In this document: positions 1 through 42,676 of the stretch, one piece after another
How the letters are laid out: every line of letters begins with the position of its first letter
Position numbering within the stretch: position 1 is the first letter of the stretch
DNA from: Deefgea piscis
GTDB lineage: Bacteria; Pseudomonadota; Gammaproteobacteria; Burkholderiales; Chitinibacteraceae
NCBI RefSeq assembly: GCF_019665785.1
Contig: NZ_CP081149.1
Coordinates: 1,364,001-1,428,000 of the forward strand
Direction: 5' to 3'
Length of the DNA: 64,000 bases
Translations under genes and position numbers: made by a program
Notes under the pieces: generated by a model
Databases searched by the model: none
Seen by the model: the letters and a program-made list of their open reading frames with translations, nothing else
Told to the model about the DNA's origin: nothing

Positions 1-702
1 CTGAATTTCATCGACAATCAGAACGCCGACGCCATGCATGTGAATTAAACGTGCAGCGTGATTCATTAGTGTCTCAGCGCCAGAGCGCGTATTGCCTCCG
101 TAAGTTTTTCCATAATTTGCATCGGGAAACAGGTTGTCGAGTTTCCGAAAAATTGACTCAGCCAAACCTTTTACACTCGCTCCATCATATGGCGTTTCGA
201 CCATCAAATATGGCACTTGATAAAAATTGAGCTCGGGATGAAAAATAACTTCAGGATAACGAGCCAATATACGCTTAATTGTTGTGGTTTTCCCCATGCC
301 GGGCATTCCCAAAAACGCAGCAGAAAGTTGAGCAGTTATTTGTCCCGCACTTTGACTGAAGCTTTGACCAGCTTGTTGCAAATCATATATCTTTCGTAGT
401 TTTGCATTAAATTCAGCCGTTCGTGGTGCCCTGCCAACGTATCCTTGTTTTATTAGCATTTCTATGGCCTGTGCCAGTTGAACATGGCGATTGAGCGGCA
501 TCATAAAGCTACCTAATTGCCCCAGCATCTGCATACGTTCTGCAATCGTCCATTCGCGTTGTTGAACGTCAAATTCTGGAACACATAGTAGTGATTTGAG
601 AAACTCACGTTCATCTATTGTGGGGGGCAATGCTTCAATTAAAGGATTACCTCGGTATTGCGGAATGCGTTGTTCTAAATATTGTGCCGTTACGTATCGC
701 AT
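1..702 (-). CDS. tnsC: Tn7-like transposition AAA+ ATPase TnsC (3' part beyond window)
   Basis: Reading the minus strand from an ATG at 702 gives 234 codons open to the window edge. TnsC-type ATPases connect the target-selection protein with the TnsA/TnsB transposase. The N-terminal part carries the sequence YRGNPLIEALPP near residue 16, typical of this family as I know it. The Walker A motif GMPGMGKTT lies at residues 132-140. The Walker B motif VGVLIVDEIQ lies at 225-234, just before the edge. The gene starts one base after the tnsB stop codon, so the two are probably translated from one message. The sensor motifs and C terminus are not visible. A TniB-type name would be equally acceptable; the presence of tnsA next to it favours tnsC. 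Confidence 0.9.
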   Translation of the reverse strand, partial: MRYVTAQYLEQRIPQYRGNPLIEALPPTIDEREFLKSLLCVPEFDVQQREWTIAERMQMLGQLGSFMMPLNRHVQLAQAIEMLIKQGYVGRAPRTAEFNAKLRKIYDLQQAGQSFSQSAGQITAQLSAAFLGMPGMGKTTTIKRILARYPEVIFHPELNFYQVPYLMVETPYDGASVKGLAESIFRKLDNLFPDANYGKTYGGNTRSGAETLMNHAARLIHMHGVGVLIVDEIQ

Positions 703-703
703 A

Positions 704-2809
704 TTATTTTCCGTTAATCATATCGTCTAGTAATGAACTTACTGACTTAGGGGCTTGCTTCTGAATTGATTGGCTGGACAAGCTTTTTTCGACCTCAGAA
801 CTGACTCTGAGTGTGTCCTCTCTATCTAGATTTGCTTCTGTCTGGCGCTGAGTGTGGCGCTCATCTTTGCGCGCTTCTACTGTATCTTTTTTCCGAGATT
901 TTCTGTTTAACCCTTTTGTCGCTTTTTTTGTTTCTGCTATGGCATTTTTAATCATATCTTCGGTATTACTTAAAAAGTCGCCGGCCAATTGTTTTTTAAT
1001 TGGCTTACTAATATGTGCGGCTAGATTAATTTCATCTTCAATAACTTTAACCTCTTCAAAACTTAATCCACGATACTTATCACACTTGTCCAATAAACTT
1101 GCAATGAAGTAACCATTTTCACTTTTTATATCGTGAACGTAAATTTTGTCAGCCAAACGCTTATCAAATGATATTGTGACTTTGGATATTCCATTTCTTG
1201 CCAATGAAAACCACCCCCGCGCCTCAGCCTCAGGTGAAGAGTAATAACATTTACCTTTCTTTATGCCCTCTGGCGTAACAGAAACAACTTCTTTTTCAAG
1301 TAAAGCAAACAAAACTTGATTTTCTGAGAAGCGAGTCAATTGTCCTGCACGGTCTCTAACTTCGAGATTCCAAATATTGATTGGCGTTGGCAATATATCA
1401 TTTAGTACATATTCAGGTGAAAGCGGACTATTAGTAAGTGGTGTTTTATTTGATTTAATTATATGCTCAATAACTAAGGTCGTGAATTCATGCAATGTTA
1501 ACGCTGCATCTTGCGCTGGGTCACTTATTTGTCGTTTTCCAAAATTTTCAGGAGGACTATACCCAGGAACTGAATTTGCATTTGGACGTAGTAATTTTTT
1601 AAACCCACTCTCAATATATGGTTTTTTATCTGCGCGTCGAGCAGGTAGATTAGTTACTTTAATTTTAAGTTCTTCAGCAAAATTTGAACTATTCTTGCCT
1701 AACATTTCGCTTCCTCGGTCTGCAAAAATACTCTGGGGAAATATTTTATCTGCGGGCCAGTCTCGTGCGTCATAATGAACACCATATCTTTGACACAACT
1801 TCTCTTTGTCTTCTGAAATAGATTTGAATGCATGCATTGCTGCAGACCAACAAGGGCTCTCAATTCCTACATAAAACCCGACAATTAAATTACTTTTTCT
1901 ATCGCAAATCATGTAAACAGTTGGTTTTCCAATAATTTTTGCTCGGTTACTAGAGTGAACAAGATACACATCAGCAATGGTTGCATCGACTTCATATACC
2001 TCCCCAACGGTGTAGGTTTCTTCGCGTAAACTTCCCAATTTTCCTCGATGTTCAAGTTCAAAAACTGCATCACCATGGCGTCGGCGAATCTGTTCTTCAT
2101 GACAATAGTTCTTTTTTAAGTAATACCTAAATTGATTTATGCTCGGGCATTCGCCAGGCGCCAAATGGCAGCGCTGACCATTTTCATTCAAATAAGAATA
2201 ATATCGATTGAGTAATTGAGTATGCGCAGCATCGATTGAGCAATTTTTATTTTTAAGATAAACTGACTCAATTATGTTCTTAATACATTTAAAATCTTTA
2301 TCAGAGAGTTGATAAATATCGTTTAGATTAAACTTTGTCGGTCTTCCTCTACGCACTGTATTGCCTTTTTGACTGCCACATCGATGAAAAGCTGCGCCAA
2401 GTGCATTCACTGTTTGTCCACCAGACCACCATGAACGTAGATACTTATAAAGAGTTTGATTTGAACAATTAAGTTCACTAGCCCTTTCAATAACCATTTT
2501 TGAGCGAAATTCAGCCTGCAAAATAAGGGGTGATTTTATAAGTGGCTCAATCCATTCGTATGCCTTTTTTCTACGTAAAAGAGCGGTTTCGGAAAGGCTG
2601 CGAAGCGTCAGAATACCATCAACGTCATGATTGGTAATGTCGCCATTAGCTAATGCTTGCTCAATTGACTCTTCAGAAAATGCCTGTGGAATTGCCAATG
2701 GGTCAGACAAGCTATATAACCAAACCAAATTCTCAGGTGAATTTATATAGAGAACCCTAAAGCGTTTTTTTAATTTAATTATTTCAAGAATTTGATTTTG
2801 GAATAGCAT
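704..2809 (-). CDS. tnsB: Tn7-like DDE transposase TnsB
   Basis: This 701-residue protein has the layout of TnsB/TniA/Mu-type transposases. N-terminal helix-turn-helix regions should bind the transposon ends. A retroviral-integrase-like core follows, then a basic C-terminal tail. The catalytic triad can be read as D275 (VYEVDATIAD), D364 (IFADRGSEM) and E400 (KKPYIESGFKK). TnsB cuts the 3' ends of the element and joins them to target DNA, working with TnsA and TnsC. It starts 2 bases after tnsA and ends one base before tnsC, so the three genes form a tight tnsABC operon. Base composition is A+T-rich compared with the genes right of 12.7 kb. No frameshift or stop is seen, so it may be active. 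Confidence 0.93.
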   Translation of the reverse strand: MLFQNQILEIIKLKKRFRVLYINSPENLVWLYSLSDPLAIPQAFSEESIEQALANGDITNHDVDGILTLRSLSETALLRRKKAYEWIEPLIKSPLILQAEFRSKMVIERASELNCSNQTLYKYLRSWWSGGQTVNALGAAFHRCGSQKGNTVRRGRPTKFNLNDIYQLSDKDFKCIKNIIESVYLKNKNCSIDAAHTQLLNRYYSYLNENGQRCHLAPGECPSINQFRYYLKKNYCHEEQIRRRHGDAVFELEHRGKLGSLREETYTVGEVYEVDATIADVYLVHSSNRAKIIGKPTVYMICDRKSNLIVGFYVGIESPCWSAAMHAFKSISEDKEKLCQRYGVHYDARDWPADKIFPQSIFADRGSEMLGKNSSNFAEELKIKVTNLPARRADKKPYIESGFKKLLRPNANSVPGYSPPENFGKRQISDPAQDAALTLHEFTTLVIEHIIKSNKTPLTNSPLSPEYVLNDILPTPINIWNLEVRDRAGQLTRFSENQVLFALLEKEVVSVTPEGIKKGKCYYSSPEAEARGWFSLARNGISKVTISFDKRLADKIYVHDIKSENGYFIASLLDKCDKYRGLSFEEVKVIEDEINLAAHISKPIKKQLAGDFLSNTEDMIKNAIAETKKATKGLNRKSRKKDTVEARKDERHTQRQTEANLDREDTLRVSSEVEKSLSSQSIQKQAPKSVSSLLDDMINGK

Positions 2810-2811
2810 AA

Positions 2812-3654
2812 TTATGCTCTCGTAATTTTATTTTCTACGTAAGAAGCTAATTTGAACGTAGGCATGGGTTGTTCTGTCAGACGAGCGGAATTTAAGTCAG
2901 TTAGCAACTCTCGGTGCCAAAGCAAATTGCGAATAACAAACAAAGAACTACCAATATCTAGACCCGCTAACTCGTCTTGTTTCTTGCAGAAATCCCCCAA
3001 CGAACCCCGGCCCGCACGGCGAATAGCATGAATCAAACGCAGACGATGTTCAGCCTGTACATCGAGTTCTTCAGAGCTGACTTCCCCACCAGCAATGGTT
3101 GCCCCGCGACACCACAAAAGATTTTTAATTTTGTTTTTTGAGAGCTGACTTGAAATAGCAAGGTGATATGGAATACCGAGCCGCTCGAAATAGCTGCGCT
3201 CAAGCTCAAGTTTTTCGAGGTCCCTCAACTTTTCAATACCGGCTTCATTCTTACAACTAAAAGCACGCAGACTGTTTTTACCTTCTTGATTTAGCGTAAC
3301 CAAAAAATCACAGGTCATAACAGTCGCAATTTTGGTTGCGGGATAAATCGGATGCTTGATATCTAACTCCGCAGCGAGTGATAGCGTCTTCTCGCGCTTT
3401 AGCGGATATTGCTCGCGGATATCTAAAACATCTCTTGAATGCTCTAACATAAGAAATAAGTGCCATTCGATGTCTGACAGCAAATGATGTACTCTTTTTG
3501 TTTTTTCGCTATAGACCCGATGACTGTTGCCTAGTGACGACAAGTCATTGATTTGAACCCACGGCTTATAATCGGATTGAATACCCTTACCGCGACCTTC
3601 GCGTTCTAACCGAGTGATTTTCTCTTCAGTCCAAATTGATTTTCTTGGTCCCAT
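2812..3654 (-). CDS. tnsA: Tn7-like endonuclease TnsA
   Basis: TnsA cuts the 5' ends of Tn7-like elements, which makes transposition cut-and-paste. The open frame extends to 3726. I choose the ATG at 3654 because GGAG lies about 7 bases before it and it gives 280 residues, close to the 273 of Tn7 TnsA. With this start the restriction-enzyme-like catalytic residues read E63 (SDIEWHLFLMLE), D116 (TCDFLVTL) and K135 (AFSCKNE), almost the positions known for Tn7 TnsA (E63, D114, K132). The C-terminal winged-helix half contains AIRRAGRGSLGDFC. It is the first gene of the tnsABC operon. In Tn7 relatives the transposon end lies just outside tnsA, so an end is expected to the right of 3654. Confidence 0.92.
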   Translation of the reverse strand: MGPRKSIWTEEKITRLEREGRGKGIQSDYKPWVQINDLSSLGNSHRVYSEKTKRVHHLLSDIEWHLFLMLEHSRDVLDIREQYPLKREKTLSLAAELDIKHPIYPATKIATVMTCDFLVTLNQEGKNSLRAFSCKNEAGIEKLRDLEKLELERSYFERLGIPYHLAISSQLSKNKIKNLLWCRGATIAGGEVSSEELDVQAEHRLRLIHAIRRAGRGSLGDFCKKQDELAGLDIGSSLFVIRNLLWHRELLTDLNSARLTEQPMPTFKLASYVENKITRA

Positions 3655-3743
3655 ACATTTCTCCAATTCTGTCTCATTAATTAACCGTTTTTCGCAGCAA
3701 ATAGTTCTGAGAAAGAAGCGGCTCAAAAGTATCGGAAAGCTAC

Positions 3744-3773
3744 ACAGTCATGATTTTATGAAAACAGTCATGA
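3744..3773. promoter_or_regulatory. Direct repeat ACAGTCATGA x2 between tnsA and the DUF6471 gene
   Basis: The 10-mer ACAGTCATGA occurs at 3744-3753 and again at 3764-3773, exactly 20 bases apart, in the gap between the divergent tnsA and DUF6471 genes. The spacing of two helical turns suits a protein-binding site. It could be an operator for tnsABC or TnsB-binding repeats of the transposon end. The sequence alone does not decide between these. Confidence 0.4.
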
Positions 3774-3837
3774 ATCTCATATATGGGATAAATATCTTTT
3801 TTATGAGATAATTTTTTTGTGGAAAAAGGGAATTTTG

Positions 3838-4152
3838 ATGGAAAAGATGAGTAATCAAGAACGCTATTGGCTGCAAGAGGCAAAGTCGACACTAAGAGCA
3901 GAACTTGAGCGAAGAGATATAAGCTACGCACGACTCGTAAAGCGACTACAAAAGCAGGGAGTGACAACCACAGAAAGAGCAATCGCAAATAAAATTTCTC
4001 GCGGCAGCTTTTCTTTCGTTTTTTTCTTACAGGTGATGAGAGCAATAGAAGCCGAGTTGGTAATTGTGACGGCAACTCAGCGAATTGACAGAGTTCAGTT
4101 TTCTGGTCCAGCTGAGTCAAAAAACCGCAGCCAGGATTGTGATTTGACGTAG
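3838..4152 (+). CDS. DUF6471 domain small protein
   Basis: This 104-residue protein is recognisable as a DUF6471 member. It has the block WLQEAKSTLRAELERRD near the N terminus, then YARLVKRL and a motif around ERAIANKISRGSFSF. The arrangement of helices resembles a small DNA-binding fold, but no function is established that I know of. The frame opens at 3817; the ATG at 3838 is preferred because AGGG stands about 7 bases before it. It diverges from tnsA, and proteins of this kind are commonly seen on mobile elements, so a regulatory role for the neighbouring transposition or replication genes is possible. That role is inference. Confidence 0.75.
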   Translation: MEKMSNQERYWLQEAKSTLRAELERRDISYARLVKRLQKQGVTTTERAIANKISRGSFSFVFFLQVMRAIEAELVIVTATQRIDRVQFSGPAESKNRSQDCDLT

Positions 4153-4682
4153 CAAAATTACGTAGGTAAACGTCACGTATATCGTTTGATACATTAACTT
4201 CAAACACTGAAATCTCCAGCATACCCTCTCAAAAATAGGAGATACCTGCCTGATTTTAAGGCATCATTTCAAGTGTTCTTTGGTTGCGTAGTACGCTGTT
4301 TTCACTTTAGAGCATAAATAGCATGTTGCAAAATTTCTTAGGCCGCACTGAGGTTCTGTCATTTTTTAGCTTCCATAAATGCCACCTTCCTTGGTTGCCA
4401 AAATTACGCAGTACGCCTGCACAAAATTATCAGCACTAGACGTTTCATAGTTCGATGTAATACGTTTAAATAACGATGACAACGAGCAAATGTGGCTCTA
4501 TTGAGTATGGAGCTTTTACTGCGACGGAAAAGTGCGAGCGTATTAACATGCTGAGAATCCGAGCCTGACTCACATGAACTAAACAGACTATAAAGTCTAT
4601 AACTCCTAAGTAGATGTATATATGAGCAAAACAGCTTGTATTTTCAGTGTGTTTTTTCCTCTGCTGGACAAGATACGTTACC
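4153..4682. other. A+T-rich non-coding stretch with CAAAATTA-type repeats
   Basis: No convincing gene is seen here. The motif CAAAATTA (one copy ends in T) occurs at 4153, 4329, 4399 and 4422, and TTGGTTGC is followed by a GTAGTACGC or GCAGTACGC motif near 4280 and 4391. Repeated short sites outside tnsA could be TnsB-binding sites of the transposon end, or part of the replication origin that follows. I could not identify a clear TGT/ACA terminus, so the right boundary of the Tn7-like element stays open. Confidence 0.4.
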
Positions 4683-4770
4683 AACCCCCAGTCAATACGA
4701 TGCAAAGCCCAAACTATTTCAATATCAACCCCAAGTAAACACGCTCTAAACCCCAAGTTAACTAACTGAC
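4683..4770 (+). repeat. Four 22-bp iteron-like direct repeats (candidate oriV)
   Basis: Units begin at 4683, 4705, 4727 and 4749, an exact 22-base period. Two units start AACCCCAAGTAAAC and AACCCCAAGTTAAC. The first has AACCCCCAGTCAAT, and the second is degenerate (AAGCCCAAACTATT). The outer 8 bases of each unit vary. The array sits about 120 bp upstream of an RHH gene and a TrfA-family initiator gene. TrfA of plasmid RK2 binds iterons with a similar spacing of about 22-23 bp. A replication origin recognised by the neighbouring initiator is the natural reading. Confidence 0.65.
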
Positions 4771-4857
4771 CAATAAAATTTACCTGCAATTAACATGCCT
4801 TTTTGCCTGAGTGATAGTGTGCGCTTAGGTCATGCAGGAAAATTGTACATATACCGT

Positions 4858-4875
4858 GAAGTTACCAACAACTTC
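4858..4875. promoter_or_regulatory. Inverted repeat GAAGTT-N6-AACTTC before the RHH gene
   Basis: The arms GAAGTT (4858-4863) and AACTTC (4870-4875) lie just upstream of the ATG at 4887. Ribbon-helix-helix proteins often repress their own promoter by binding such short palindromes. An autoregulatory operator for the rep operon is therefore plausible, but the arms are short. Confidence 0.35.
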
Positions 4876-4886
4876 GTGTATATAAA

Positions 4887-5057
4887 ATGGCCACTAAAAA
4901 GACGCCCGACAACGATACTATCCAGCTAGCAGTTAGAGTTCCAAAACATCTACATAAAGAATTTTATGCGACTTGCACTAGCAGGGGCAGCAACGGTTCT
5001 TCAATGATTCGTGCATTGATGACTCTTTTCATTGAGAAGGCACGTAACAATGAATAA
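4887..5057 (+). CDS. Ribbon-helix-helix (CopG/Arc-type) protein
   Basis: This 56-codon gene reads MATKKTPDNDTIQLAVRVPK at the start, then a helix pair ending in SSMIRALMTLFIEKARNNE. A short strand (TIQLAVRVP) followed by two helices is the classic ribbon-helix-helix layout of small plasmid regulators such as CopG. Its stop codon overlaps the start of the trfA-like gene by 8 bases (ATGAATAA), so translation of the two is probably coupled. A role as copy-number or autoregulatory repressor of the replication operon fits. No strong ribosome binding site is seen before the ATG. Confidence 0.7.
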   Translation: MATKKTPDNDTIQLAVRVPKHLHKEFYATCTSRGSNGSSMIRALMTLFIEKARNNE

Positions 5058-6180
5058 GCCGCTCAAACTTGTTAAAAAAAATGAAATTGAGGAATTACGG
5101 AGTTTAGTAAGTCGAACTGCAAGTGCAGCATTGACAGCGTTACCTGACAGCCAAATAACAATTTTAAATGCAGCAGAACGGCTTAATAAACTTGCAGACG
5201 GTCTTGAACGAAAAGAAAAACTAGAAAATTTAGTTCCAAGCATTGCTGTGATACCAAGTGAAGCGACAGCAGAAGAATTACAAGAGTCGAGACGGTATCA
5301 AGCAACACGCCGTGGTAATGACGTATATCTCCCTTGTTTAGTGGAAGTTACTTCAATCATGCCTAAGGCGTTTATACGGTCTGCGCTTTTCTCACCAAGT
5401 GCAAGTGTTCAGGCAAATAATGCCAATGTGCTTGCTGGTGACCAAACGTTATTAGTCGCATCCAAGATTATTGCAACGTATAAAAGTTTGACGCTATTGT
5501 TTAGTGGGTATGAGCTGTGTCAATTTGATAGAAAAGTTTACGCTAATTGTTTGTCATACTATAGAGAACAGCCATTGGCTTTAGACAAAAATGCAGATAT
5601 CGATGAAGTCGTATGTACGGATGACATACAAACTTCGTTTTATAAATTTTGTCTTCGGTTGGGGGTTAGTTACAGTATTGACTCTCACAAAGCGATTAGA
5701 GCAAGTCTACTTAGATTAAGTTTTGCTCAACTGCGACTTCGTATTAATCGAATGAATATTGAGATACCAAAACTTTTGGCAATTAACTTCGAAGATGGAG
5801 AACCAACAGGGAATTTTCGTGCCAGTGACAAAATGGCACTAAGAGTTACTAAATCATTTGCTGAGCTTTTTGGACCAAATGAATGGACTTCAATTAGTAA
5901 AAAAGCCAGCAGTTATGATGGACTCAAAGGATGGTTAGCATGTTTTTATACTAGTCATTCAAAACCAAAATGGCTAGCAGTTGAGTGGCTATATTGCCTT
6001 TCGGGATATTCTTCAAACAAGAATAACTTTAAAGCAAGTTTAATCCGCGCCTTAGATAAACTGAAGAGTGAAAAATCAATGGGTAACAATCATATTACAG
6101 CATATTATTTTTCACAGGATGGTAAAAAAATACTAGTTATTCGTTCAGACTGGAATGCTCCAGAACTTTCTGAAGAATAA
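5050..6180 (+). CDS. trfA: TrfA-family plasmid replication initiator
   Basis: This 376-residue protein follows the pattern of TrfA, the initiator that binds iterons of IncP-type plasmids and opens the origin. From residue 98 it has YLPCLVEVTSIMPKAFIRSA, then RSALFSPS. Next come SLTLLFSGYELCQFDRKVY (TrfA has a matching YTGxEL...D..VW block), FYKFCLRLGVSYS, and a C-terminal winged-helix-like part around LKGWLACFYTSHSKPKWLAV. The open frame starts at 5032; the ATG at 5050 overlapping the RHH gene is preferred. The iteron array lies upstream at 4683-4770. Together they form a complete-looking basic replicon of plasmid type inside an otherwise chromosomal window. The family assignment is by pattern and not by a search. 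Confidence 0.82.
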   Translation: MNKPLKLVKKNEIEELRSLVSRTASAALTALPDSQITILNAAERLNKLADGLERKEKLENLVPSIAVIPSEATAEELQESRRYQATRRGNDVYLPCLVEVTSIMPKAFIRSALFSPSASVQANNANVLAGDQTLLVASKIIATYKSLTLLFSGYELCQFDRKVYANCLSYYREQPLALDKNADIDEVVCTDDIQTSFYKFCLRLGVSYSIDSHKAIRASLLRLSFAQLRLRINRMNIEIPKLLAINFEDGEPTGNFRASDKMALRVTKSFAELFGPNEWTSISKKASSYDGLKGWLACFYTSHSKPKWLAVEWLYCLSGYSSNKNNFKASLIRALDKLKSEKSMGNNHITAYYFSQDGKKILVIRSDWNAPELSEE

Positions 6181-6278
6181 AGGCCAGTGATTAATATCCC
6201 TTGCGCTATATATGTATTGGCATTATTCGAATAAATATAATCTACAAAGGGGCAAAGGGCCGCAGGTTCGTTTGTTAA

Positions 6279-7550
6279 TCAGTTTGCTTTTACAATCGGA
6301 ATCTCTGCCCATCTTGTTGTCCAGTGCAGCGATTCGCGATTCTGTCGCATTTTCCACCCGTGGTTGAATCCTGCACTAGCCACTCGGATTGAGCCGCGGC
6401 CCCATTGTCGATTGATGTCATCCATTACTTTGTTCAGTGCTGCGCGCTTAATGGGGTCGGCGGTTTGTAGGAATAAATGACCTTGCACCGCCGTTCGGGG
6501 CTGCAGGTCACACAGCATCACGCCTGCTTTTGCATAGGCAAATCCGGTTCGATAAATCCGCTTGAGTACCCACAGCGCGGCGCGGGTCAGTAGTAGCGTG
6601 TCGTCGCTGGCTTGGGTGAGTGGAACGAGGATGTGCTGGCTGTATTGTGGGTCTTTAGGGCGGAATGGATTGGTGCGAATAAACACAGCTAAACTCCCCG
6701 CCACTGAACCTTGTTTCCGTAGTTTTTCAGCGGCGCGAGCAATGTAGGTGCTGATGGCTTGGCCCAACTCTTGTTCGGTATAAATAGTTTGGCCAAAGCT
6801 GCGTGAACACAGGATTTGCTGTTTGTCGGGAGTCGATTCTTCCAGTTCAATGCTAGGTATGCCACGTAGTTCATGTACGGTGCGCTGCACGACAATGCTG
6901 TAGCGTTGGCGTATCTGGTCAGCGTTCGCTGCTCTCAAATCCGCAATGGTGTGTATACCTTCCAGCGCCATTCGTTCAGATATTTTCCGACCAATACCCC
7001 AGACTTCACTAGCCGCTAAGGATTGCATTTGTGCATCTTGCTGGCCGGGGCTGAGTTTGAACCATTCGCACACGCTATTAAACGGTGCTTGTTTCTTAGC
7101 GGTGTGATTGGCCAGCTTGGCGAGTGTCTTGGTTGGTGCAATGCCAACGCAGACGGGTAAGCCAGTCCATTGCAGTACAGTGCGACGGATTTCTTGCCCT
7201 AGTTCGGTATGGTCTTGCGGTAAACCGTCAAAACTCAAAAAGCACTCGTCGATACTGTAAATTTCTTGGTTCGGACTAAAGCGGTTCAGTATGGTCATTA
7301 CCCGATGGCTCATATCGGCATACAGCGCGTAATTGCTACTGCGAGCAATGATGCCTTCCTGCTCCGCAAACTCACGTAACTGATGCCACGGTGCTCCCAT
7401 CTTGATGCCCAAGGCTTTGACTTCGGCACTGCGCGCCACTACACAGCCATCATTATTTGATAGCACCACCACGGGTTTACCAATCAGCTTGGGTTCAAAT
7501 ACGCGTTGGCAGGATACGTAAAAATTGTTCACATCGACCAAAGCAATCAT
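6279..7550 (-). CDS. umuC: Translesion DNA polymerase V catalytic subunit UmuC
   Basis: UmuC is a Y-family polymerase that copies past DNA lesions when joined to processed UmuD. The N terminus reads [20 protein letters not shown] and contains the first metal-binding Asp. The second acidic site is in [10 protein letters not shown]. The helix-hairpin-helix region ([12 protein letters not shown]) and the little-finger domain follow. Length from the ATG at 7550 is 423 residues, close to E. coli UmuC (422). The frame extends further upstream, but this start overlaps the umuD stop as ATGA, the usual arrangement in umuDC operons. Such operons are common on plasmids and integrative elements, in keeping with this region. 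Regulation is probably through the operator at 8032-8045. Confidence 0.93.
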
Positions 7551-7996
7551 CGTGGCCTCACTATCCATGCGGTGACTACGCCCCAAATCGACAACTCTTG
7601 TTCATCGCCAATCACGATAGGCGGATAAGCCGGATTCTCTGCAATCAATGCCAAACGCTTGCCCCTGCAATACAGCCGCTTCACAGTAAAATCACTATCA
7701 ATCACCGCCACGACAATATCGTCATGCTTGGCGCTCAAGGCACGGTCAATAATCAGCGTTGCGCTATCGGGAATTGAACGCTCCGCAATTGGGCTGACCA
7801 TGCTGTCGCCTGAAACGGTAAAATAGAACGTCGCTTCGGCATGCTGAACATAGCGCAGGTTTAAATCGACGCGCTCTTCTGCCCAATCTTCGGCAGGAGA
7901 TGGAAAACCTGCCGAAACAGAAACGCCCATCAGGGGCAACAGCAGTAATTGCGGCTCAAGTGCGGCGGGTATAGGTGGATGCAAATGGAGTGACAT
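7547..7996 (-). CDS. umuD: UmuD, self-cleaving polymerase V subunit
   Basis: UmuD is a LexA-like S24 peptidase. RecA filaments make it cut itself, and the shortened form activates UmuC. The 149-residue protein has the cleavage region [11 protein letters not shown], with an Ala-Gly bond where E. coli has Cys-Gly. The nucleophile serine is in SGDSM, and the general-base lysine is in DFTVKRL. The N-terminal arm before the cleavage site is about 28 residues. It is first in the umuDC operon and has a clear ribosome binding site (AGGA) before its ATG. A perfect TATAAT and a palindromic operator lie about 30-50 bases upstream. Confidence 0.93.
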
Positions 7997-8026
7997 GGGT
8001 TATCCTGAAACTATCTGAATCAGAAT

Positions 8027-8045
8027 ATTATAGAACGAACGTTCT
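8027..8045. promoter_or_regulatory. umuD promoter with LexA-like palindrome AGAAC-N4-GTTCT
   Basis: On the minus strand a perfect -10 box TATAAT occupies 8032-8027. The palindrome AGAACGAACGTTCT at 8032-8045 directly overlaps it and fills the spacer towards the -35. A repressor bound here would block umuDC transcription, and the site also faces the divergent SRAP gene. The GAAC-N4-GTTC form is that of Bacillus-type SOS boxes, not the CTGT-N8-ACAG expected in most beta- and gammaproteobacteria. Confidence 0.6.
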
Positions 8046-8050
8046 TTGTT

Positions 8051-8719
8051 GTGTGCGTAAACTACATTCCAATTCCTAAACGGTTAGTGCTCAGCCATTT
8101 TGCTGCTGGTGAACCGAAAGCCGACTAGCCTGATGAAGTCTGGCAAGACTACGCTGCGCCGATGATTGTGCATGGCCGCCAAGGGCGACAAGCCGTGGTT
8201 GCGAACTACGGCTTTTTACCCAAAGCAAAACTACCGCAAGGTGCGCGCTACAGCACGATGAACGCGCGGGCTGAAACCATAGGGCAACTCAAAAGCTACC
8301 AAGGCGCATGGCAACGCAGCCAACTTTGTCTGGTGCCGATGAAGGGATTTTTTGAGCCATGCTATGAATCAGGCAAAGCAGTACGACACCAAATTAGCTT
8401 GGCGAACAATGCGCCATTTGCGGTGGCCGGACTGTGGCGAGCATGGGAAGAAGAGAATGGCCTGCGCAGCTATTCGTTCACACAAATCACCATCAACGCT
8501 GATGAACACCCGCTGATGAAGAGAATGCACAAGCCCGATGATGAAAAACGAAATCTGGTCATTATTCCTGAGGCCAATTACGACGCATGGCTAAGTTGCA
8601 AAAGCATGGAACTAGCACGTACTTTTTTGAAAAACTATCAAGCAGAGTTAATGAAGGTTGAAGCACAATCTTTGCAAAAAACACACTCAAATTTGTTGCA
8701 GCAGAAGTCTTTGTTTTGA
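8051..8719 (+). pseudogene. yedK: SRAP/YedK (HMCES) family gene interrupted by an in-frame TAG
   Basis: SRAP proteins form a covalent link through Cys2 to abasic sites in single-stranded DNA and shield them. From a GTG at 8051 the frame reads M-C-V-N-Y, giving the essential Cys2. It meets TAG at codon 26 (8126-8128) and continues open to 8719. After the stop come PDEVWQDYAAPM, TMNARAET (active-site Asn), CLVPMKGFFEP (Glu) and ADEHPLMKRMH (His), all in good order. Related proteins usually have Trp at the interrupted position as far as I recall, so one TGG to TAG change would explain it. The gene is divergent from umuDC, a common partner on mobile elements. Without Cys2 a product from the ATG at 8162 should be inactive. 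Suppression or a sequencing error cannot be excluded. Confidence 0.8.
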
Positions 8720-8864
8720 GAGGATTAGAAACTGATGCGGAATCCTATTCAATTTATCCACCCAAACTCTTTGAGCATCGCGACCCCCTTACCAGTTTAG
8801 CCACAGCTAAACTTGGATTGCAGCCCACTATGATTGACTGGTTTAAAATATGCGACAGGCAGTA
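8720..8864. other. Spacer between SRAP gene and IS1182 element
   Basis: No gene is seen. A small perfect hairpin, AGTTTAGC-CACA-GCTAAACT, lies at 8794-8813 but has no T-run. The sequence GTTTAAAATATGC at 8841-8853 is repeated at 10511-10523 on the other side of the IS element. Confidence 0.5.
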
Positions 8865-10491
8865 GTCGGCCCAGACTGTGTAAAAACGCTGCGGCAGGCC
8901 AAGCCCACTTCACCTTCACAATCGTTTTTTGTGTTTTTCACTGCTCATTTGTTCGCAAACCTAGCCGCCATTAGCTGCAAAAAAGCCTTTTAGGCTCTCA
9001 TTGCCACCATTAGGTTCTCAATTCCTACAATCTTCATTGCTCGCTTCATGTTGTAAGCGAGTATATGCAAACTCATCTCAGTTCGGACGTGCTCTAGGCT
9101 TTTGGTTAGGAAGTGTGTCGCGCCCATCCATTCCTTTAAAGTGCCAAACGGATGCTCGACCGTTGATTTTCTAATCCGCATCGCATTGGGCATTTGGTCT
9201 AGCCGAGTTTGCATTGCATCTAAGATATTTTCATGTTCCCAACGAGTAACACGTCGTTCCTTGCCTGGAGTGCATTGCGTTTTCAAATGGCAAACCTGAC
9301 ATTTAGAACTCCAGTATTTATGTAGCGTCTGTCCTTTCTCAATGCTGATGCAACGTTGCGTAAGTTGCTCACCAGCAGGACACTGATATTCATTAGTCTG
9401 CGCGTCATAAATGAAATCGGATTTATCAAACCGACCTTTTGCGTTCGCGCCGGAGGTCATGCACTTAGGAACGATGGCGCTAATCTGCGATTCATCGCAG
9501 GCCTGAATTTCTTCGCTTTTAAAATAACCACGGTCAGCAATCGCGGTGAGTTTCTCGACGGCCATCGCTGTTTTTGCTTGCTGTGCCATCTTGCTGAGTT
9601 GCGAACGGTCAGAACCCTCGTTGTTCACATCATGCGCAACAATCAAATGATTTTTGGTATCCACTGCAGTTTGCGCGTTGTAACCAACGATGCCATTCCC
9701 TCGCGATTTCATGGAGCGGGCATCGGGGTCGGTCAGTGATATTTGCTTATCGGGGACTTGATTTAGCGCCACTTCAATCGTTTGCAACTCAGCCATTTTG
9801 GCTTTCAAAGCTGTGATTTTGTTCTGCAAGCGCTCGGCGTTCACCGCCGCAGTGGCGGGCTCTTGGCGGTCTGCTGTATCGAGTGCTGCCAGATAACGCT
9901 GAATGCTGTTTTCAATTTCTTCCATGCGGCGTTGTAATTTTGCGCTGGTGAAATTGCGGTCTCGATTATTAACCGCTTTGAATTTACTCCCATCGACCGC
10001 GACGATGGCTTCGGTGAATAAACCGAGTTGCTGGCAGAGCAATACGAACTGGCGACAGACTTTGATGATGGCCTTGCCATTGTCTTTGCGGAAGTTGGCG
10101 ATGGTTTTGAAGTCGGGGGTTAATTTGCCACTCAGCCACATCAGTTCGACGTTGCGCTGTGCTTCGCGCTCCAAGCGACGACTTGATTGAATGCGGTTCA
10201 AATAGCCGTAAATGTAAATTTTGAGCATCACGCTGGGGTGATAGGACTGCCGTCCCGTTATGGCTGGCGCGACACAGTCGAAACCAAGTTGAGCCAGATT
10301 GAGCTCATCGACAAAAACATCAACAATGCGCACTGGATTCGCTTCAGCAATGTAGTCATCAAGGCATTCTGGGAGTAAGGTAGTCTGCGTTCGGCTTTCA
10401 CCTTCGATAAAGCGTTTCAAAACAAACACCTCGTCCCTTGGTCATGGCAAAATCATACTACAAGGCGCGTTTTTACACAGTCTGGGCCGAC
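8865..10491. mobile_element. IS1182-family insertion sequence
   Basis: The element has perfect 25-bp terminal inverted repeats at 8865-8889 and 10467-10491 (inner part CAGACTGTGTAAAAACGC) around one transposase gene. The similarity continues outward imperfectly to 8855 and 10501 through ACAGGC and GCCTGT. The true tips are therefore uncertain by up to about 12 bases, and no clear direct target duplication is visible. The outward motif is also found behind neighbouring genes at 11188 and 11612, so the element may have entered, or may share ends with, a local repeat. Confidence 0.85.
8990..10429 (-). CDS. IS1182-family DDE transposase
   Basis: This 479-residue protein has the full length usual for IS1182 transposases. 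It begins from a GTG at 10429. The N-terminal domain contains HPSVMLKIYIYGYLNRIQSS and ANFRKDN. The DDE core shows AIVAVDGSKFKAVNNRDRN (first Asp), AIADRGYFKSEE (second Asp) and EHPFGTLKEWMG (Glu region). A cysteine cluster (CQVCHLKTQC) lies between, as in many relatives. No frameshift is seen, so it should be functional. It lies between matching inverted repeats. Confidence 0.93.
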   Translation of the reverse strand: MFVLKRFIEGESRTQTTLLPECLDDYIAEANPVRIVDVFVDELNLAQLGFDCVAPAITGRQSYHPSVMLKIYIYGYLNRIQSSRRLEREAQRNVELMWLSGKLTPDFKTIANFRKDNGKAIIKVCRQFVLLCQQLGLFTEAIVAVDGSKFKAVNNRDRNFTSAKLQRRMEEIENSIQRYLAALDTADRQEPATAAVNAERLQNKITALKAKMAELQTIEVALNQVPDKQISLTDPDARSMKSRGNGIVGYNAQTAVDTKNHLIVAHDVNNEGSDRSQLSKMAQQAKTAMAVEKLTAIADRGYFKSEEIQACDESQISAIVPKCMTSGANAKGRFDKSDFIYDAQTNEYQCPAGEQLTQRCISIEKGQTLHKYWSSKCQVCHLKTQCTPGKERRVTRWEHENILDAMQTRLDQMPNAMRIRKSTVEHPFGTLKEWMGATHFLTKSLEHVRTEMSLHILAYNMKRAMKIVGIENLMVAMRA

Positions 10492-10503
10492 TGCGGCCTG
10501 TGA
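10487..10503 (-). repeat. Gene-following repeat, copy 1 (next to IS1182 end)
   Basis: On the minus strand the segment reads ACAGGCCGCAGTCGGCC. It lies downstream of the gene at 10573-11121 and abuts the right tip of the IS1182 element. It matches the copies at 11188-11204 and 11612-11627, which have the same orientation relative to the gene before them. Confidence 0.65.
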
Positions 10504-10572
10504 GCCACATCATGTTTAAAATATGCCATTGAAAGCAATAACAGGCAGCTTCGTCCCAATGTTTAAATACAA

Positions 10573-11121
10573 TTATTTTGAAGTAGGGCAAGGACTTTCA
10601 ACAAGCCGAGTATCACAAACAATTGCGGAACGCAGATATTGCGTCCATTGGGCAACCTGTTCTTTAGTTGGGTCAAACTTAAATGCTTTTTGAACAATAT
10701 AAAAACTATCATTTCCTTTGATTGCTTTGAACCAAGTATTTTCTGGCTTTCCTGTCGCAGAATTTAACGGACATGTTTGCACCCAAAGTGAAAAATCATA
10801 GCCATTTTCTTTACCATTTTTAAGTGGTGTAACATTCCCATCTTTGCATGCAGCTAACCAAGTTTTGCCCATGTATGTTTGAAATTGCGCCAGAGTTACA
10901 TTATTAATTTTTGAGCCTAAAAAAACCTGTGTCGTGACCATTTCAGTCCAATTACTAACGGACTCTGCTTGAGGAACCATTTCGGTTGTGACTATGGTGC
11001 CTTGTTTGTTCTGGAAGTCCATCTTATAGCCAGTTGGAAGTGTGACTAATAAATTTTCATCTAACAGTGAGGCATAACTCATGCATGGCAAAGCAAGAAG
11101 TAATAAGAAAGTTGATTTCAT
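10573..11121 (-). CDS. Hypothetical exported protein (cassette-like gene)
   Basis: I do not recognise the family. The 182-residue product from the ATG at 11121 starts MKSTFLLLLALPCMSYASLL, a clear Sec signal peptide with likely cleavage after SYA. The mature part is small and has no membrane segment. It has four cysteines (AACKDG, QTCPL, VCDT, ESPCP) that could form two disulfides. The start is chosen because GGA lies 8 bases before it and it begins the signal peptide. The gene has no close operon partner and is followed by the shared short repeat at 10487. A periplasmic or outer-surface role is likely from the signal peptide only. Confidence 0.7.
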   Translation of the reverse strand: MKSTFLLLLALPCMSYASLLDENLLVTLPTGYKMDFQNKQGTIVTTEMVPQAESVSNWTEMVTTQVFLGSKINNVTLAQFQTYMGKTWLAACKDGNVTPLKNGKENGYDFSLWVQTCPLNSATGKPENTWFKAIKGNDSFYIVQKAFKFDPTKEQVAQWTQYLRSAIVCDTRLVESPCPTSK

Positions 11122-11187
11122 AAAATTCATCCAAATGATTACATTTATTAGCACATAAAACTAAACAGGGGGTTGACCACATTTGGC

Positions 11188-11219
11188 CGACTGCCGCCTG
11201 TTTTCGACCCAAAGGAGCC
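11188..11219 (-). repeat. Gene-following repeat, copy 2
   Basis: The minus-strand sequence is GGCTCCTTTGGGTCGAAAAC followed by AGGCGGCAGTCGG, located between the DUF2750 gene and the next gene. Its core GGGTCGA-AACAGG-GC-AGTCGG is shared with the copy at 11612 and, more weakly, with the copy at 10487. Confidence 0.65.
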
Positions 11220-11242
11220 ACTCTAGTCAATTAGTAAGCTTG

Positions 11243-11575
11243 CTAACTCAAGGGGGCGACTTCCAAACCTGCAAGGTCGGCATTGAAGTTAACTCCAGCA
11301 AGCAGGCCATCTTTATGCATTCCATTAAGCCAATTATCTATAAATGATTTAAGTTCGATTTCTGCTGGTTGATAGTTCGCCCACTCTGCTTTTGCATGCC
11401 GCTTTGCGTAAGCCTGCTCAGACCAAAAAAGTAAAACTTGGCAGTCAAACTCATTTGAGTCGCAATTAGCCCAGCCATTCTCAGATTTCAAACCCCAAAC
11501 GATTTTAGACTCACGAACCTTCTTAATGAAGCGCTCATAGTTATCATGCAAATCTGAAACGAGATGTAAATTCAT
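11243..11575 (-). CDS. DUF2750 domain protein
   Basis: The 110-residue product matches the DUF2750 pattern: YERFIKKVRESKIVWGLKSE near the start, GWANCDSNEFDCQVLLFWSE in the middle, then EIELKSFIDNWLNGMHKDGL and a C-terminal LAGLEVAP. Function is unknown; members often sit in gene cassettes or next to stress genes. A strong AGGAGG stands 8 bases before the ATG at 11575, which suggests the gene carries its own translation signal. It lies on the minus strand in a row of three unrelated small genes separated by a shared repeat. Confidence 0.85.
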   Translation of the reverse strand: MNLHLVSDLHDNYERFIKKVRESKIVWGLKSENGWANCDSNEFDCQVLLFWSEQAYAKRHAKAEWANYQPAEIELKSFIDNWLNGMHKDGLLAGVNFNADLAGLEVAPLS

Positions 11576-11611
11576 TAATTTAGCCTCCTGATTCTTAATA
11601 AGTTCCGCCTG

Positions 11612-11642
11612 TAGCCGACTAGCACCTGTTATCGACCCTAAG
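11612..11642 (-). repeat. Gene-following repeat, copy 3
   Basis: The minus strand reads TTAGGGTCGATAACAGGTGC then TAGTCGGC, within a larger imperfect hairpin whose outer arms are TTCCGC and GCGGAA. It lies between the 11657-12241 gene and the DUF2750 gene, in the same orientation as the other two copies. Confidence 0.65.
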
Positions 11643-11656
11643 CGGAAGGAAATAAA

Positions 11657-12241
11657 TTATGTAGAGCCCTGATTTCTTGACCACGCCTGAATTTCATTTA
11701 GTCGTTTTTCAAGGTGGCTGATATATCTAAAATCCTTGTTGATGTCATCATCTGCCTGCAAAATCTTTATTGCTCTGATGACTCGCCATCCATAGCCTTT
11801 TGATGTCGATTTAATAAATGTTTTAATAAACAAATCAAGTAGGCTCTGTTTTTTCTTGATGACAATTAAAACATCAACAGAGCACCATTTACTTAAAGGG
11901 TCCATAGGTGAATTTATTTCTTTCATGCACTGATGAAGGAATTCATTCATTAACTTTTCACGATTTCTATTTATTGCTACCAGCAGAGGCCTGCAGGCAA
12001 CACAAACCCGCCGGTTGGAATCATGGCACATCATTGCAGATTGGAAGGACTCACTCAGTATTTTGTTTATTGAAAAGTCTGATGCTTTTTCTGCGACAGC
12101 ACTTAATGCTTGGCAACGATACCAAGGGTGTCGAATTGATTTTGCAAGTAGATAAGCAGCATCAATATCCTGACTGACAATCTGGTTAACTTGCTTCCTG
12201 AGTGCAACACCTTGCGCCCAATCAGATTGATTATTTCTCAT
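11657..12241 (-). CDS. Hypothetical protein with helical repeats
   Basis: I do not recognise a named family. The frame is open from 12352; the ATG at 12241 gives 194 residues and is preferred because the sequence from MRNNQSDWAQ onward looks protein-like. The part upstream is low-quality and has no good ribosome binding site. The segment AAYLLAKSIRHPWYRCQALS followed by VAEKASD resembles a HEAT- or TPR-like helical repeat unit, and the rest is predicted to be mostly helical. Six cysteines are scattered. There are no membrane segments. It is the most upstream of three minus-strand genes that are each followed by a shared repeat, so it may be cassette cargo. Function unknown. Confidence 0.6.
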   Translation of the reverse strand: MRNNQSDWAQGVALRKQVNQIVSQDIDAAYLLAKSIRHPWYRCQALSAVAEKASDFSINKILSESFQSAMMCHDSNRRVCVACRPLLVAINRNREKLMNEFLHQCMKEINSPMDPLSKWCSVDVLIVIKKKQSLLDLFIKTFIKSTSKGYGWRVIRAIKILQADDDINKDFRYISHLEKRLNEIQAWSRNQGST

Positions 12242-12736
12242 TAAGTTGCTCGTTTGTTTGGAAGCAGAGGCGAGGTTTGTTGTAGCCGTCCGCTCCTGGC
12301 AGATACCTCTCACCTGACTAGCCATTGTCGGTTCACTCAGTTGCTGTCGCAAAAGTAAAATGGTTGATGTTGCCTAAGAAGAACATGATGTTAGCTTACA
12401 GTCCAGCAATCGACGCAACCCTATTCAAAAGCGGTCAGCTCAAATTTATTTATAGAATTAACATTTTGCCTCAGTTTTATTTATGAAAAGACCTCCAAAA
12501 CCCAAAAAATCCATATTTTTTAAGTGATTGGATAAAAATTTTATACAAACATAACTACAGCACGATAGAGGAAATATTTTAATAATAAAATCTGAGATGA
12601 AATAAGTAATTGATAATGTGGGAATATTAATCGATAAATGCGGAAGTCAGTAAAAATTGAAAGGAGAGGAATGGCTTTAGCTCAGATTTTATTATTAACT
12701 CATTTTTTATTGGCACACATCAGGTTTCATTTGTAA
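12242..12736. other. A+T-rich junction region upstream of truncated comEC
   Basis: No long gene is seen. A 21-codon plus-strand frame at 12671-12736 has a strong AAGGAGAGG ribosome binding site and reads MALAQILLLTHFLLAHIRFH. Its stop TAA at 12734 lies in the same frame as comEC, directly before the comEC-like sequence. The stretch is much richer in A+T than comEC. The join between foreign DNA and comEC falls between about 12735 and 12755. Confidence 0.55.
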
Positions 12737-14395
12737 ATTACCACCAAACCGCAGTGGCAACGATTTGCGCTGACGGGGATTACGCATTTAATCAGTATTT
12801 CAGGTTTACACATTACGATGCTGGCGGCGATGGGCATGGCGCTGGTGCTGTATGGCTGGCGGCGCAGTGCGTATTTAACGCAAAGGCTGGCCGCGCAGCG
12901 TGCGGCTTTAATCGCCGGGGTGTTGATCGCGTTGATCTATAGCGTGTTGGCGGGAATGAGTGTGCCAACGCAGCGCACCGTATTAATGCTGTTGGTCGGC
13001 GCCGTGTGCTTGTGGCGAGCTAGGCCGATGGCGATCAGCGCGATTTGGGCTAGTGCCTTGGCGGTGGTGCTGTTGTTTGATCCTTTTGCCGTGCTATCGG
13101 TTGGTTTTTGGCTGTCGTTTTTGGCGGTGGCGTATTTGATTTGGATGGGCGCCAATCGTATTGGGCGCGAACCGGCGTGGCGCTTGTGGTTAAGTACGCA
13201 GTGGGCGGCGACGTTGGCGTCGTTACCGATTTTGGTGCTGGTATTTGGGCAGGTGCCTTTGATGTCGCCACTGGCCAATGCATTGGCGATTCCTTTGGTC
13301 AGTGTCTTGATTACGCCTTTGGCCTTATTGGGTTTGCTCGACCCAACGGGAACGCTGTTGCGTTGGGCTGAAGGCTTGTTTTCAATCTTAGATCGCTTAC
13401 TGCAATGGATCTTGACTTGGCCGTGGCCGGCGCTAGAGATCAGTTCTCCTCCAATGGGTATATTGCCAGTAGCGATGCTGGGTGTAGCTTTGCTGCTATT
13501 ACCCCGAGGTATTCCAGCGCGCTGGCTCGGTTGGCTGATGCTACTGCCCTTGTTTTTTATGCCGCAGCCCAAATTGGACGATGGGCAGTTTAAATTACAG
13601 GTGCTCGACGTAGATCAAGGTTTGAGTGTGCTGGTGCAAACGCGGAAACACGCTTTGTTGTTTGATACTGGGCGTGAGGCCAATGCCGAGCGCGTGATTT
13701 TGCCGGTGTTGCGTCAGGCAGGGATTACCCGGCTGGATACTTTATTGCTTTCGCATAATGACAACGATCATATTGGCGGCGCGCCGATTTTGCTGGGGCA
13801 GGGCGATCGTTTAGCTTTTCCAATTGCTTTGATTTTGCATAGCTTGCCAGACAATCAGCCGATTTTAAGCAGTAAAATCACCCAACAACGCTGCCAAACA
13901 GGGCAGCGCTGGCGCTGGGATGGCGTTGATTTTGAGGTCTTGTGGTTGCATCCCAACTATGTCGCTAACAATGACAATGCGCGCGGCTGTGTGCTGCGAA
14001 TTCATAATCGCTGGCATAGTGCTTTGATCCCGGCAGATATTAGTCGCCTTGAAGAAGGCGAGCTGCTCGCGGCGGGACTGCCGGCGACGGCGATTGTGAT
14101 TGCGCCCCATCACGGCAGTAAAAGCGCTTCATCGGATGCGTTTATTCAAGCTTTGCAACCACAATACGCGGTATTTTCAGCGGGGTTTATGAATCAATTT
14201 CGGCATCCGCATCCCGAGGTGTTGGCGCGCTATGCCGCAGCAGGTGCGACGCTATTGCGGACGGATCAGGCTGGATCATTACAATTTACTGTCGGCGAAC
14301 TGATTAAGCTACAAGAGCAACGCGCCATCGCGCCGCGATATTGGTACACTGCGACTTATTCTGATCCAAAAACGGCTGTTGGAATTTCGCCATGA
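12737..14395 (+). pseudogene. comEC: 5'-truncated comEC (DNA uptake channel)
   Basis: ComEC carries single-stranded DNA through the inner membrane during natural transformation. Full-length members have about 700-800 residues. Here recognisable sequence starts abruptly near 12755 (WQRFALTGITHLISISGLH, the start of the competence membrane domain). An in-frame TAA stands at 12734, so the N-terminal 200 or so residues, with the DUF4131/OB part, are missing. The remaining frame includes several membrane helices (for example VLIALIYSVLAGMSVPTQRT). It ends with the metallo-beta-lactamase-like domain, with LLSHNDNDHIGG and IAPHHGSKSASS. An ATG at 12818 could start a 525-residue fragment. The gene overlaps the MOSC gene by ATGA. 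The lost part coincides with the border of the accessory region, so disruption by insertion or deletion is likely. Confidence 0.85.
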
Positions 14396-15192
14396 CGATG
14401 TTGCTTTCTGCTTTATACCGCTACCCCCTTAAATCATGTCGTGCTCAAGCACTGAGCCAAAGCCAGCTCGACATGCGTGGCTTGCCACAAGATCGAGAAT
14501 GGATGATAGCCAATTCGGCTGGCGTGCAAATCACTGCGCGCACTGAGCCACGGATTTTATTGATTTGTGCTGAAGTCACGCCCGATGGTCTGTGGCTCAA
14601 AGCACCCGGCATGGCCGATTTATTTGTCGCGCTCGCGCAGTTTAATGAACTGCATCAGGCTGATGTTTGGGAAACCGAATTTTTAGCACGGCGTGGCGCT
14701 CTCGATGCTGATGCGTGGTTGTCTGCATATTTAAATCAAACCGTACATCTGATGTGGCTGGGCTTAGAACCGCACCGGCGCTTAAAAAACCATCCAGATG
14801 TGGCGATTAGCTTTGTCGACACCTATCCCTTATTAATCATTGGTGAAGGCTCTTTACAAGCGCTGAATGCACGCATTGGCCGTGAGTTATCGATGCTGCG
14901 TTTTCGGCCTAATTTGGTTATTGCCAATAGCGCGCCATTTGCTGAGGATACTTGGCAGCGGATTCGGATTGGCGAGGTGGAGATTGAATTAGCCAAAGCG
15001 TGTGAACGCTGTTTGATGACGACCCTCGACCCTGATACCGCTGAGCGCACCAAAGATTCAGAACCGCTACGTAGTTTGGCTAAGTTTAGAAAAAGCGGCG
15101 CTGCGGTGGTGTTTGGTCAAAATGCGCGGGTGGTGCAAGGCGGCGCATTACAACTGGGATTGCCGGTTGAAGTGCTAAGTTATAAGGGTTAA
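14392..15192 (+). CDS. MOSC domain protein (YcbX-like)
   Basis: The 266-residue protein has an N-terminal MOSC beta-barrel (LYRYPLKSCRAQALSQSQLD, DREWMIA) and a C-terminal MOSC domain. The latter contains LRFRPNLVI and the conserved cysteine in KACERCLMTTLDP, which in this family binds the sulfur-carrying molybdenum cofactor. YcbX relatives reduce N-hydroxylated compounds using molybdenum. The start overlaps the comEC stop as ATGA, suggesting coupled translation in the ancestral operon; the ATG at 14398 is an alternative start. No iron-sulfur domain is attached, so it would need a separate electron donor. Substrate unknown. Confidence 0.85.
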   Translation: MTMLLSALYRYPLKSCRAQALSQSQLDMRGLPQDREWMIANSAGVQITARTEPRILLICAEVTPDGLWLKAPGMADLFVALAQFNELHQADVWETEFLARRGALDADAWLSAYLNQTVHLMWLGLEPHRRLKNHPDVAISFVDTYPLLIIGEGSLQALNARIGRELSMLRFRPNLVIANSAPFAEDTWQRIRIGEVEIELAKACERCLMTTLDPDTAERTKDSEPLRSLAKFRKSGAAVVFGQNARVVQGGALQLGLPVEVLSYKG

Positions 15193-41911: not shown

Positions 41912-42005
41912 GCTTTGATTTTACTGGGTATTGCCATACAAATCATATCCTTCATGATTTATAGGGTAATACTGCGACAACTATTTTATCCATCCGCAGC
42001 GTGAA

Positions 42006-42347
42006 TTAGTAGACATATTCTGGCAGCGGTGGCGGCGCTAATCGCTGCCAGTCGACACCGCTCACCAACCATTGCCACTGCGCCGCATCCAGCGTAAACA
42101 CAGCATCGCCCGATTGTGGCCAAATAAATCGACCGTGATGCAAACGCCGTTGCGCCAACCAGACGCCAGAGCGATCCCACAGCAACACTTTGAGGCGATT
42201 GCTGCGCTGATTGCGAAACGCATACGCTGCACCTTCGACGGGTGAACGCTGCAAACAGGCGTGAATCTTGGCCGACAAACCCTCGATGCCAAGGCGCATA
42301 TCGACCGGTTCGACGACCAATTGCAGCGAAGTGAATGGCGGCATCAT
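42006..42347 (-). CDS. tnpB: IS66 accessory protein TnpB
   Basis: The 113-residue protein is the IS66 Orf2 type, recognised by VVEPVDMRLGIEGLSAKI, then AAYAFRNQRSNRLKVLLWD and VWLAQRRLHHGRFIWP. It is needed for IS66 transposition but has no known catalytic motif. The start ATG overlaps the tnpA stop as ATGA, so translation is coupled. This TnpB is unrelated to the RNA-guided nuclease of the same name. Confidence 0.93.
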   Translation of the reverse strand: MMPPFTSLQLVVEPVDMRLGIEGLSAKIHACLQRSPVEGAAYAFRNQRSNRLKVLLWDRSGVWLAQRRLHHGRFIWPQSGDAVFTLDAAQWQWLVSGVDWQRLAPPPLPEYVY

Positions 42348-42676
42348 GCCAAACCGCGCAATAACGCCGCGACCCAAGCCGGATCGGTCGCCGCAGGCAA
42401 AGTCAGGGTCACGCCGGAGGGGAAATTCAACTGCAACTGCGCCGCAACGGGTGCGGGCCATTGTGCGGGCACGATGCTTGACGCCGATGGTTTCGGGGCG
42501 ATCTGCGGTTCGGTGATTGCAGCTGAAGATGCGTCGGCAGATTCGAGGCGGCTACGGCGCAGCCAACTGGAAAAAGTAGTGCGTTTAAGCTGGTGCACTC
42601 GGACAAACTCGGCTTGAGTTAAACCGCTAGTCTGCCAACGTTGAACCCATTGCAAAGCATCAATCCACCGTCCCAT
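42344..42676 (-). CDS. tnpA: IS66 accessory protein TnpA
   Basis: The 110-residue product starts MGRWIDALQWVQRWQTSGLT and has the helix-turn-helix AEFVRVHQLKRTTFSSWLRR typical of IS66 OrfA proteins. GGAG lies 6 bases before the ATG at 42676. It is the first of the three transposition genes and lies about 55 bp inside the right inverted repeat. Confidence 0.9.
   Translation of the reverse strand: MGRWIDALQWVQRWQTSGLTQAEFVRVHQLKRTTFSSWLRRSRLESADASSAAITEPQIAPKPSASSIVPAQWPAPVAAQLQLNFPSGVTLTLPAATDPAWVAALLRGLA

Follow-up and report, generated by a model that had tools for sequence, protein, structure and literature searches.

A candidate TrfA-like iteron replicon carried by a Tn7-like transposon in comEC of Deefgea piscis

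The stretch of Deefgea piscis DNA analyzed here (the window; 64,000 nucleotides, bases 1364001-1428000 of a 3,575,158-bp genome on one contig) contains four direct repeats, a small ribbon-helix-helix (RHH)-like open reading frame (ORF), and a gene for a TrfA-like replication initiator (Rep). We consider it fairly probable that these form a compact iteron replicon, carried as cargo by a 47.6-kb Tn7-like defense transposon in comEC, and that the clade of this replicon served transiently circular islands. The anatomy, homology, location, and conservation of the replicon are observed directly. Its parts are as follows.

4683..4770, forward strand: four iteron-like direct repeats with an exact 22-bp period; 22-bp arrays also occur in five related loci
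4153..4886, no strand: putative origin region that includes the repeats; DnaA boxes only with one mismatch
4887..5057, forward strand: small RHH (CopG-like) ORF, proposed rep regulator; weak RHH match, 48% identical to a Vogesella ORF
5050..6180, forward strand: TrfA-like replication initiator, 376 aa; plasmid TrfA homology, profile comparison, structural model, and tree

Repeat array and putative origin region

A preliminary description, made from the sequence alone, had named four direct repeats at an exact 22-base period, and this was borne out. When lags of 18-26 were compared over the 734-bp intergenic region, lag 22 was best with 40/66 matches, a value reached by none of 1000 dinucleotide shuffles. 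In 104 kb of real sequence examined at lags 12-40, at least 40/66 matches were found nowhere but at the array. The units are imperfect, with 11 to 16 of 22 bases identical between pairs, and unit 2 is the weakest. Neither Tandem Repeats Finder nor an ordinary repeat finder grouped the four units into one family. Regular direct repeats next to rep are present, as in an iteron origin, and the RHH-like ORF starts about 117 bp past them. The AT-richest 40 bp of the putative origin region contain 29 A/T, and the DnaA boxes there all carry one mismatch. No inverted repeat above the chosen threshold was seen at the RHH promoter, and Rfam at gathering thresholds found nothing in window positions 1-14500.

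The resemblance to the RK2 iteron core proposed initially was not significant. The comparison used R751 only, as a stand-in for RK2, and 1179 of 2000 column-shuffled motifs were as good as the window repeats. For the best single locus (Paludibacterium) 107/2000 shuffles equaled the likeness, and for all 20 units pooled 353/2000 did.

The Rep protein and the RHH-like ORF

The Rep ORF is full length and uninterrupted by stops. With the window Rep, tblastn returned 26 plasmid records, of which 22 are annotated TrfA (best E 1e-10, 26% identity). Profile-profile comparison with TrfA was strong, and the homology extends across the initiator region. A modest structural model resembles iteron initiators, with two predicted winged-helix domains. 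The protein misses the curated Pfam model of TrfA, PF07042, by which the preliminary description had proposed to check its TrfA-like gene. That model is matched by one of five alignment members (E 7.7e-7), and the sixth Rep, from genome G713, scores 21.1 bits against a cut-off of 22. A genome search with PF07042 was also empty, but its controls were equally silent. Because of the missed Pfam model, we file the window Rep as a TrfA-like relative and not as a PF07042 member.

Pfam, NCBIfam, and PHROGs gave no family with a useful E value for rep. A PDB sequence search gave eight rows (E 0.46-0.57), which we judged to be chance. In phages, tblastn with the window Rep found nothing, and an IMG/VR scan yielded 192 pattern matches with none confirmed.

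The RHH-like ORF is present as described at the outset and overlaps the Rep ORF by 8 bases; its family assignment stands less well, with RHH_10 matching at E 0.016 and scoring 15.9 bits where the cut-off is 27. An equivalent ORF is recognizable in Vogesella (48% identity), in Paludibacterium (weak models), and in G713 (weak models only, with no BLASTP alignment). None was recognized by reading in Paraburkholderia or Duganella.

Related loci

The following match counts include the source genome itself. Rep matches were found in 8/300 genomes of the order, with one strong match other than the source, and in 6/43 genomes of the family, where the other five are distant. A Rep profile search of the class at E 1e-10 matched the source genome alone (1/369). 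In the family of Vogesella, 5/61 genomes matched at a threshold of E 1e-6, with strong matches in Vogesella and two others. A scan of the genome collection by two peptide patterns gave 36 stretches and four confirmed loci, a total that is a lower bound. In all there are six distinct loci, namely the window and those of Vogesella fluminis (57% Rep identity to the window), Paraburkholderia dilworthii (55%), Paludibacterium denitrificans (54%), Duganella fentianensis (47%), and G713 (35%). L013 and G223 count as a single locus, and so do L016 and G741.

Repeats of 22 bp lie upstream of Rep in all five relatives (43-54/66 matches, 0/1000 shuffles each). A midpoint-rooted tree places the six Reps and eight plasmid TrfAs on opposite sides of a split supported at 100/100; the tree excluded the distant chromosomal TrfA-like matches, and alignment and tree took only the first 285 residues of the Paludibacterium Rep. 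Codon change favors third positions for the window-Vogesella pair, a pairwise value and not one for the window branch alone. Three of the Reps have no record of at least 60% identity among 72,556 plasmids. The window, Vogesella, Paraburkholderia, and Paludibacterium loci were placed in chromosomes from contig size and neighbors read by eye; Duganella (3.7-kb contig) and G713 are unplaced.

Tandem integrases and a tRNA-Ala adjoin the Paraburkholderia replicon, and a repeat of the tRNA 3' end as a far attachment site is absent from the 40 kb examined. Near the Paludibacterium replicon, integrase matches occur at distances of about 7 and 20 kb, and the listings for the contigs of Vogesella and G713 contain none. 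The Paludibacterium rep (L016:9947-10825) and nearby hsdR-like ORFs look frame-broken, by decay or assembly error.

The host transposon within comEC

The 47.6-kb Tn7-like transposon splits comEC and holds the replicon in the stretch from tnsA to its right end. Its landmarks in the window are these.

1..702, reverse strand: start of tnsC, which runs on left of the window (L043:2095-3702; TniB E 4.6e-15)
704..2809, reverse strand: tnsB (Mu-transpos_C E 3.6e-5)
2812..3648, reverse strand: tnsA (profile match)
12716..12743, no strand: right terminal inverted repeat, sharing 22/28 bases with the left end at L002:5103
12744..14395, forward strand: 3' part of comEC, with the 5' part at L002:4414-5102

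Reading left of the window, as had been suggested, showed tnsC continuing and the rest of comEC. TnsA, TnsB, TnsC, and TniQ/TnsD are all encoded, the gene set of a Tn7-like element. Inverted repeats with 22/28 bases alike stand at both broken edges of comEC. Tn7-like elements have TGT..ACA termini and a 5-bp target duplication; here the termini appear as TGG..CCA and overlap by 4 bp (CCAA), the exact terminal base being approximate, and removal of the overlap regains an open comEC frame. A search of 47,641 bp with a motif derived from the ends gave 14 matches, and seven start at most 134 bp from the left or 307 bp from the right end, although some of this clustering is built in, as the motif was drawn from the ends themselves. 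The element has no match to PF00589 (tyrosine integrase), the family searched for an own integrase of the SGI1 type.

A 59-residue peptide across the comEC joint is matched in 38/41 genomes searched. The gene is unbroken across the joint in all six other genomes of the genus in that search (78-98%), is broken in G000 and G675, and was read as an empty site at base level in G677. By the 3' part of comEC, genomes G675 and G238 carry related elements whose position agrees to within a few codons. Their tnsA lies about 0.7 kb from the edge, and the Rep profile matches nothing in either genome. The 9.1 kb that separate tnsA from the right end in the window element, with the replicon, umuDC-like genes, SRAP gene, and insertion sequence (IS), therefore look like added cargo. 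In three genomes of the family, related Tn7-like elements occupy roughly the same comEC position (window 12744/L002:5102; L058; L059). These elements suggest that comEC is a regular target. In the part of PMC11472951 that we consulted, comM is given as the target.

Cargo and defense genes

The remaining features near the replicon are listed below.

3841..4152, forward strand: DUF6471 protein (E 5.4e-25), between tnsA and the repeats and opposite in direction to tnsA
6279..7996, reverse strand: umuC- and umuD-like genes (IMS, Peptidase_S24), cargo
8162..8719, forward strand: SRAP family gene, cargo
8990..10429, reverse strand: IS transposase, cargo

The element also carries Olokun, Shango, and type III Wadjet genes (JetB weakly), as well as HipA-like and Mrr-like genes (L001:3387-6835, L001:8005-15561, L002:9434-15426). 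Wadjet is an anti-plasmid system; its nearest gene is 9.5 kb from rep. By PADLOC models, defense genes lie near 6/6 loci, a count that is a lead only, as the ten scanned neighbors were picked for their defense-like look without a background rate. The neighbors are DpdE-, DruE-, and DrmMI-like in Vogesella, HmaA and HmaC in Paraburkholderia, type I restriction in Paludibacterium and Duganella, and type I restriction with JetD in G713. Elsewhere in the element, a 339-aa ORF after tniQ (L001:16968-17987) matches DUF4096 (IS4/5 transposase type) at its C-terminus, just under the cut-off. The ORFs at window 40319-42461 resemble those of an IS66-type element.

Proposed mechanism and alternative explanations

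In the mechanism we propose, the four 22-bp repeats, the CopG-like regulator, and the TrfA-like initiator would form the replicon, with both genes in one operon. Rep would bind the repeats, open the DNA nearby, and recruit the host replisome, while the RHH protein would repress the operon. In the chromosome, this repression and Rep-mediated pairing of iterons may keep the replicon silent. Most members of the replicon clade whose placement could be judged are chromosomal. In the likeliest history, the clade served islands with a transient stage of circular replication like that of SGI1, and perhaps still does, and the transposon would have picked up one of these replicons. The mobile element with its own replication system that was envisaged at the start agrees with the anatomy, that of a Tn7-like element with a TrfA-like iteron replicon; its replication of any kind, like iteron binding, repression, and the history of the replicon, is what we infer. 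Against our proposal, the window Rep taken alone has no PF07042 match, and it may be doubted whether the window copy works, because the other five loci all have more regular repeats.

The same irregularity would suit a relic, that is, a replicon of plasmid or island origin that was captured in the distant past and has since lost its function. Partition and transfer genes were not seen on reading, and the comEC elements of G675 and G238 are without a replicon. The intact Rep ORF argues against a relic, as does the preference for third-position codon change, though this holds for the window-Vogesella pair only. We regard a relic as possible but clearly the weaker explanation; it and our proposal are not mutually exclusive, and our confidence in the two is not meant to add to certainty. 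Alternatively, chromosomal iterons and Rep might be an incompatibility device within defense islands, interfering with plasmids that arrive with related origins. Defense genes occur near the six loci, with Wadjet genes at two (one by JetD only), and replicating SGI1 destabilizes its helper plasmid (PMC7433901). Against this, the neighbors were hand-chosen without a background rate, Wadjet lies at least 9.5 kb from rep in the window, and no target plasmid is known, since three Reps lack a close plasmid match. The SGI1 effect is also much reduced in excision- or replication-deficient mutants. Such a device seems unlikely. A broader version, that a chromosomal TrfA-like lineage settled in defense islands, including the Tn7-like transposon, as an incompatibility barrier or as a reserve origin for circles between hosts, is slightly less improbable and is offered tentatively.

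That Rep has turned into a transcription regulator would fit a clade distinct from the eight plasmid TrfAs compared, but neither the initiator-like domains nor the iteron array has been lost, and we find this quite improbable. Tn7 TnsB sites have a similar length, and the repeats are found on the same side as tnsA, so they might have been TnsB-binding sites of the right end. The right end is 8 kb further on, differently sequenced repeats cluster at both comEC edges, no 12-of-14 match links the end regions with the iteron block, and the repeats accompany Rep in relatives where reading showed no tns genes. We rejected this reading on the end-region comparison and the end-motif distribution, and leave it hardly any probability. 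Equally little is left for a whole plasmid integrated beside comEC, as first supposed from the plasmid-type rep; umuDC-like genes do occur on plasmids. The element has related, transposon-like inverted ends at both comEC edges, comEC is intact across the joint in the six other genomes of the genus, and the replicon is missing from the G675 and G238 elements. No plasmid backbone genes (partition, relaxase, or transfer) were seen on reading the listed ORFs of the element, for which no profile scan was made.

Origins inside chromosomal islands blur the boundary between plasmid and transposon. A working module would give a Tn7-like element an origin of its own, and a conserved origin near defense genes would then open a role in plasmid exclusion to direct test. 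One element here joins a break in comEC (competence), defense genes, and a replicon.

Comparison with known systems

The TrfA (PF07042) replicons of IncP plasmids and their relatives have an initiator homologous to the window Rep, and 22-bp direct repeats lie near trfA in 5/7 plasmids inspected (seven of the 26 tblastn matches, with R751 in addition). The window Rep differs in falling below the Pfam model, in forming its own clade against eight plasmid Reps, and in being chromosomal, and its iterons were not matched to those of R751.

TrfA homologs occur in yicC-specific SGI1-like chromosomal islands of Vibrio and Aeromonas (PMC8409611; PMC9035990). These share with the window a TrfA homolog in a chromosomal island, but are SGI1-related with predicted control by the IncC activator; they were compared by description, not by sequence. 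SGI1 itself has an S004-rep-oriV module (PMC7433901), in which a small DNA-binding gene, rep, and four iterons likewise stand together in an island. Unlike the window, its Rep is of the RepA_C family, its 17-bp iterons lie downstream of rep, and its excision is integrase-driven. That island replicon works after excision and destabilizes the helper plasmid, much more weakly in mutants without excision or replication (PMC7433901). CopG-RepB of pMV158 and PrpA of pMBL6842 (PMC7848731) are RHH regulators of plasmid copy number, whereas the sequence link of the window ORF is weak and its regulator role putative. The integrating iteron plasmid pPDL2 (PMC3516476) was weighed as a precedent; "TrfA" is absent from its main text.

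Tn7-like transposons with defense cargo (PMC8649781) have TnsA, TnsB, TnsC, TniQ, and such cargo in common with the window element. The mobile cargo in section 9 of that paper is insertion sequences and resolvase transposons, and "replicon" is absent from its main text. A Tn7-like element with such a replicon is likewise not described in the parts of PMC11472951 or PMC6563490 that we saw. Island-borne TrfA is already published (PMC8409611, PMC9035990) and hence not new. What is new, as far as the open literature was searched, is a clade with conserved 22-bp arrays, its presence in a Tn7-like element in comEC, and its defense setting.
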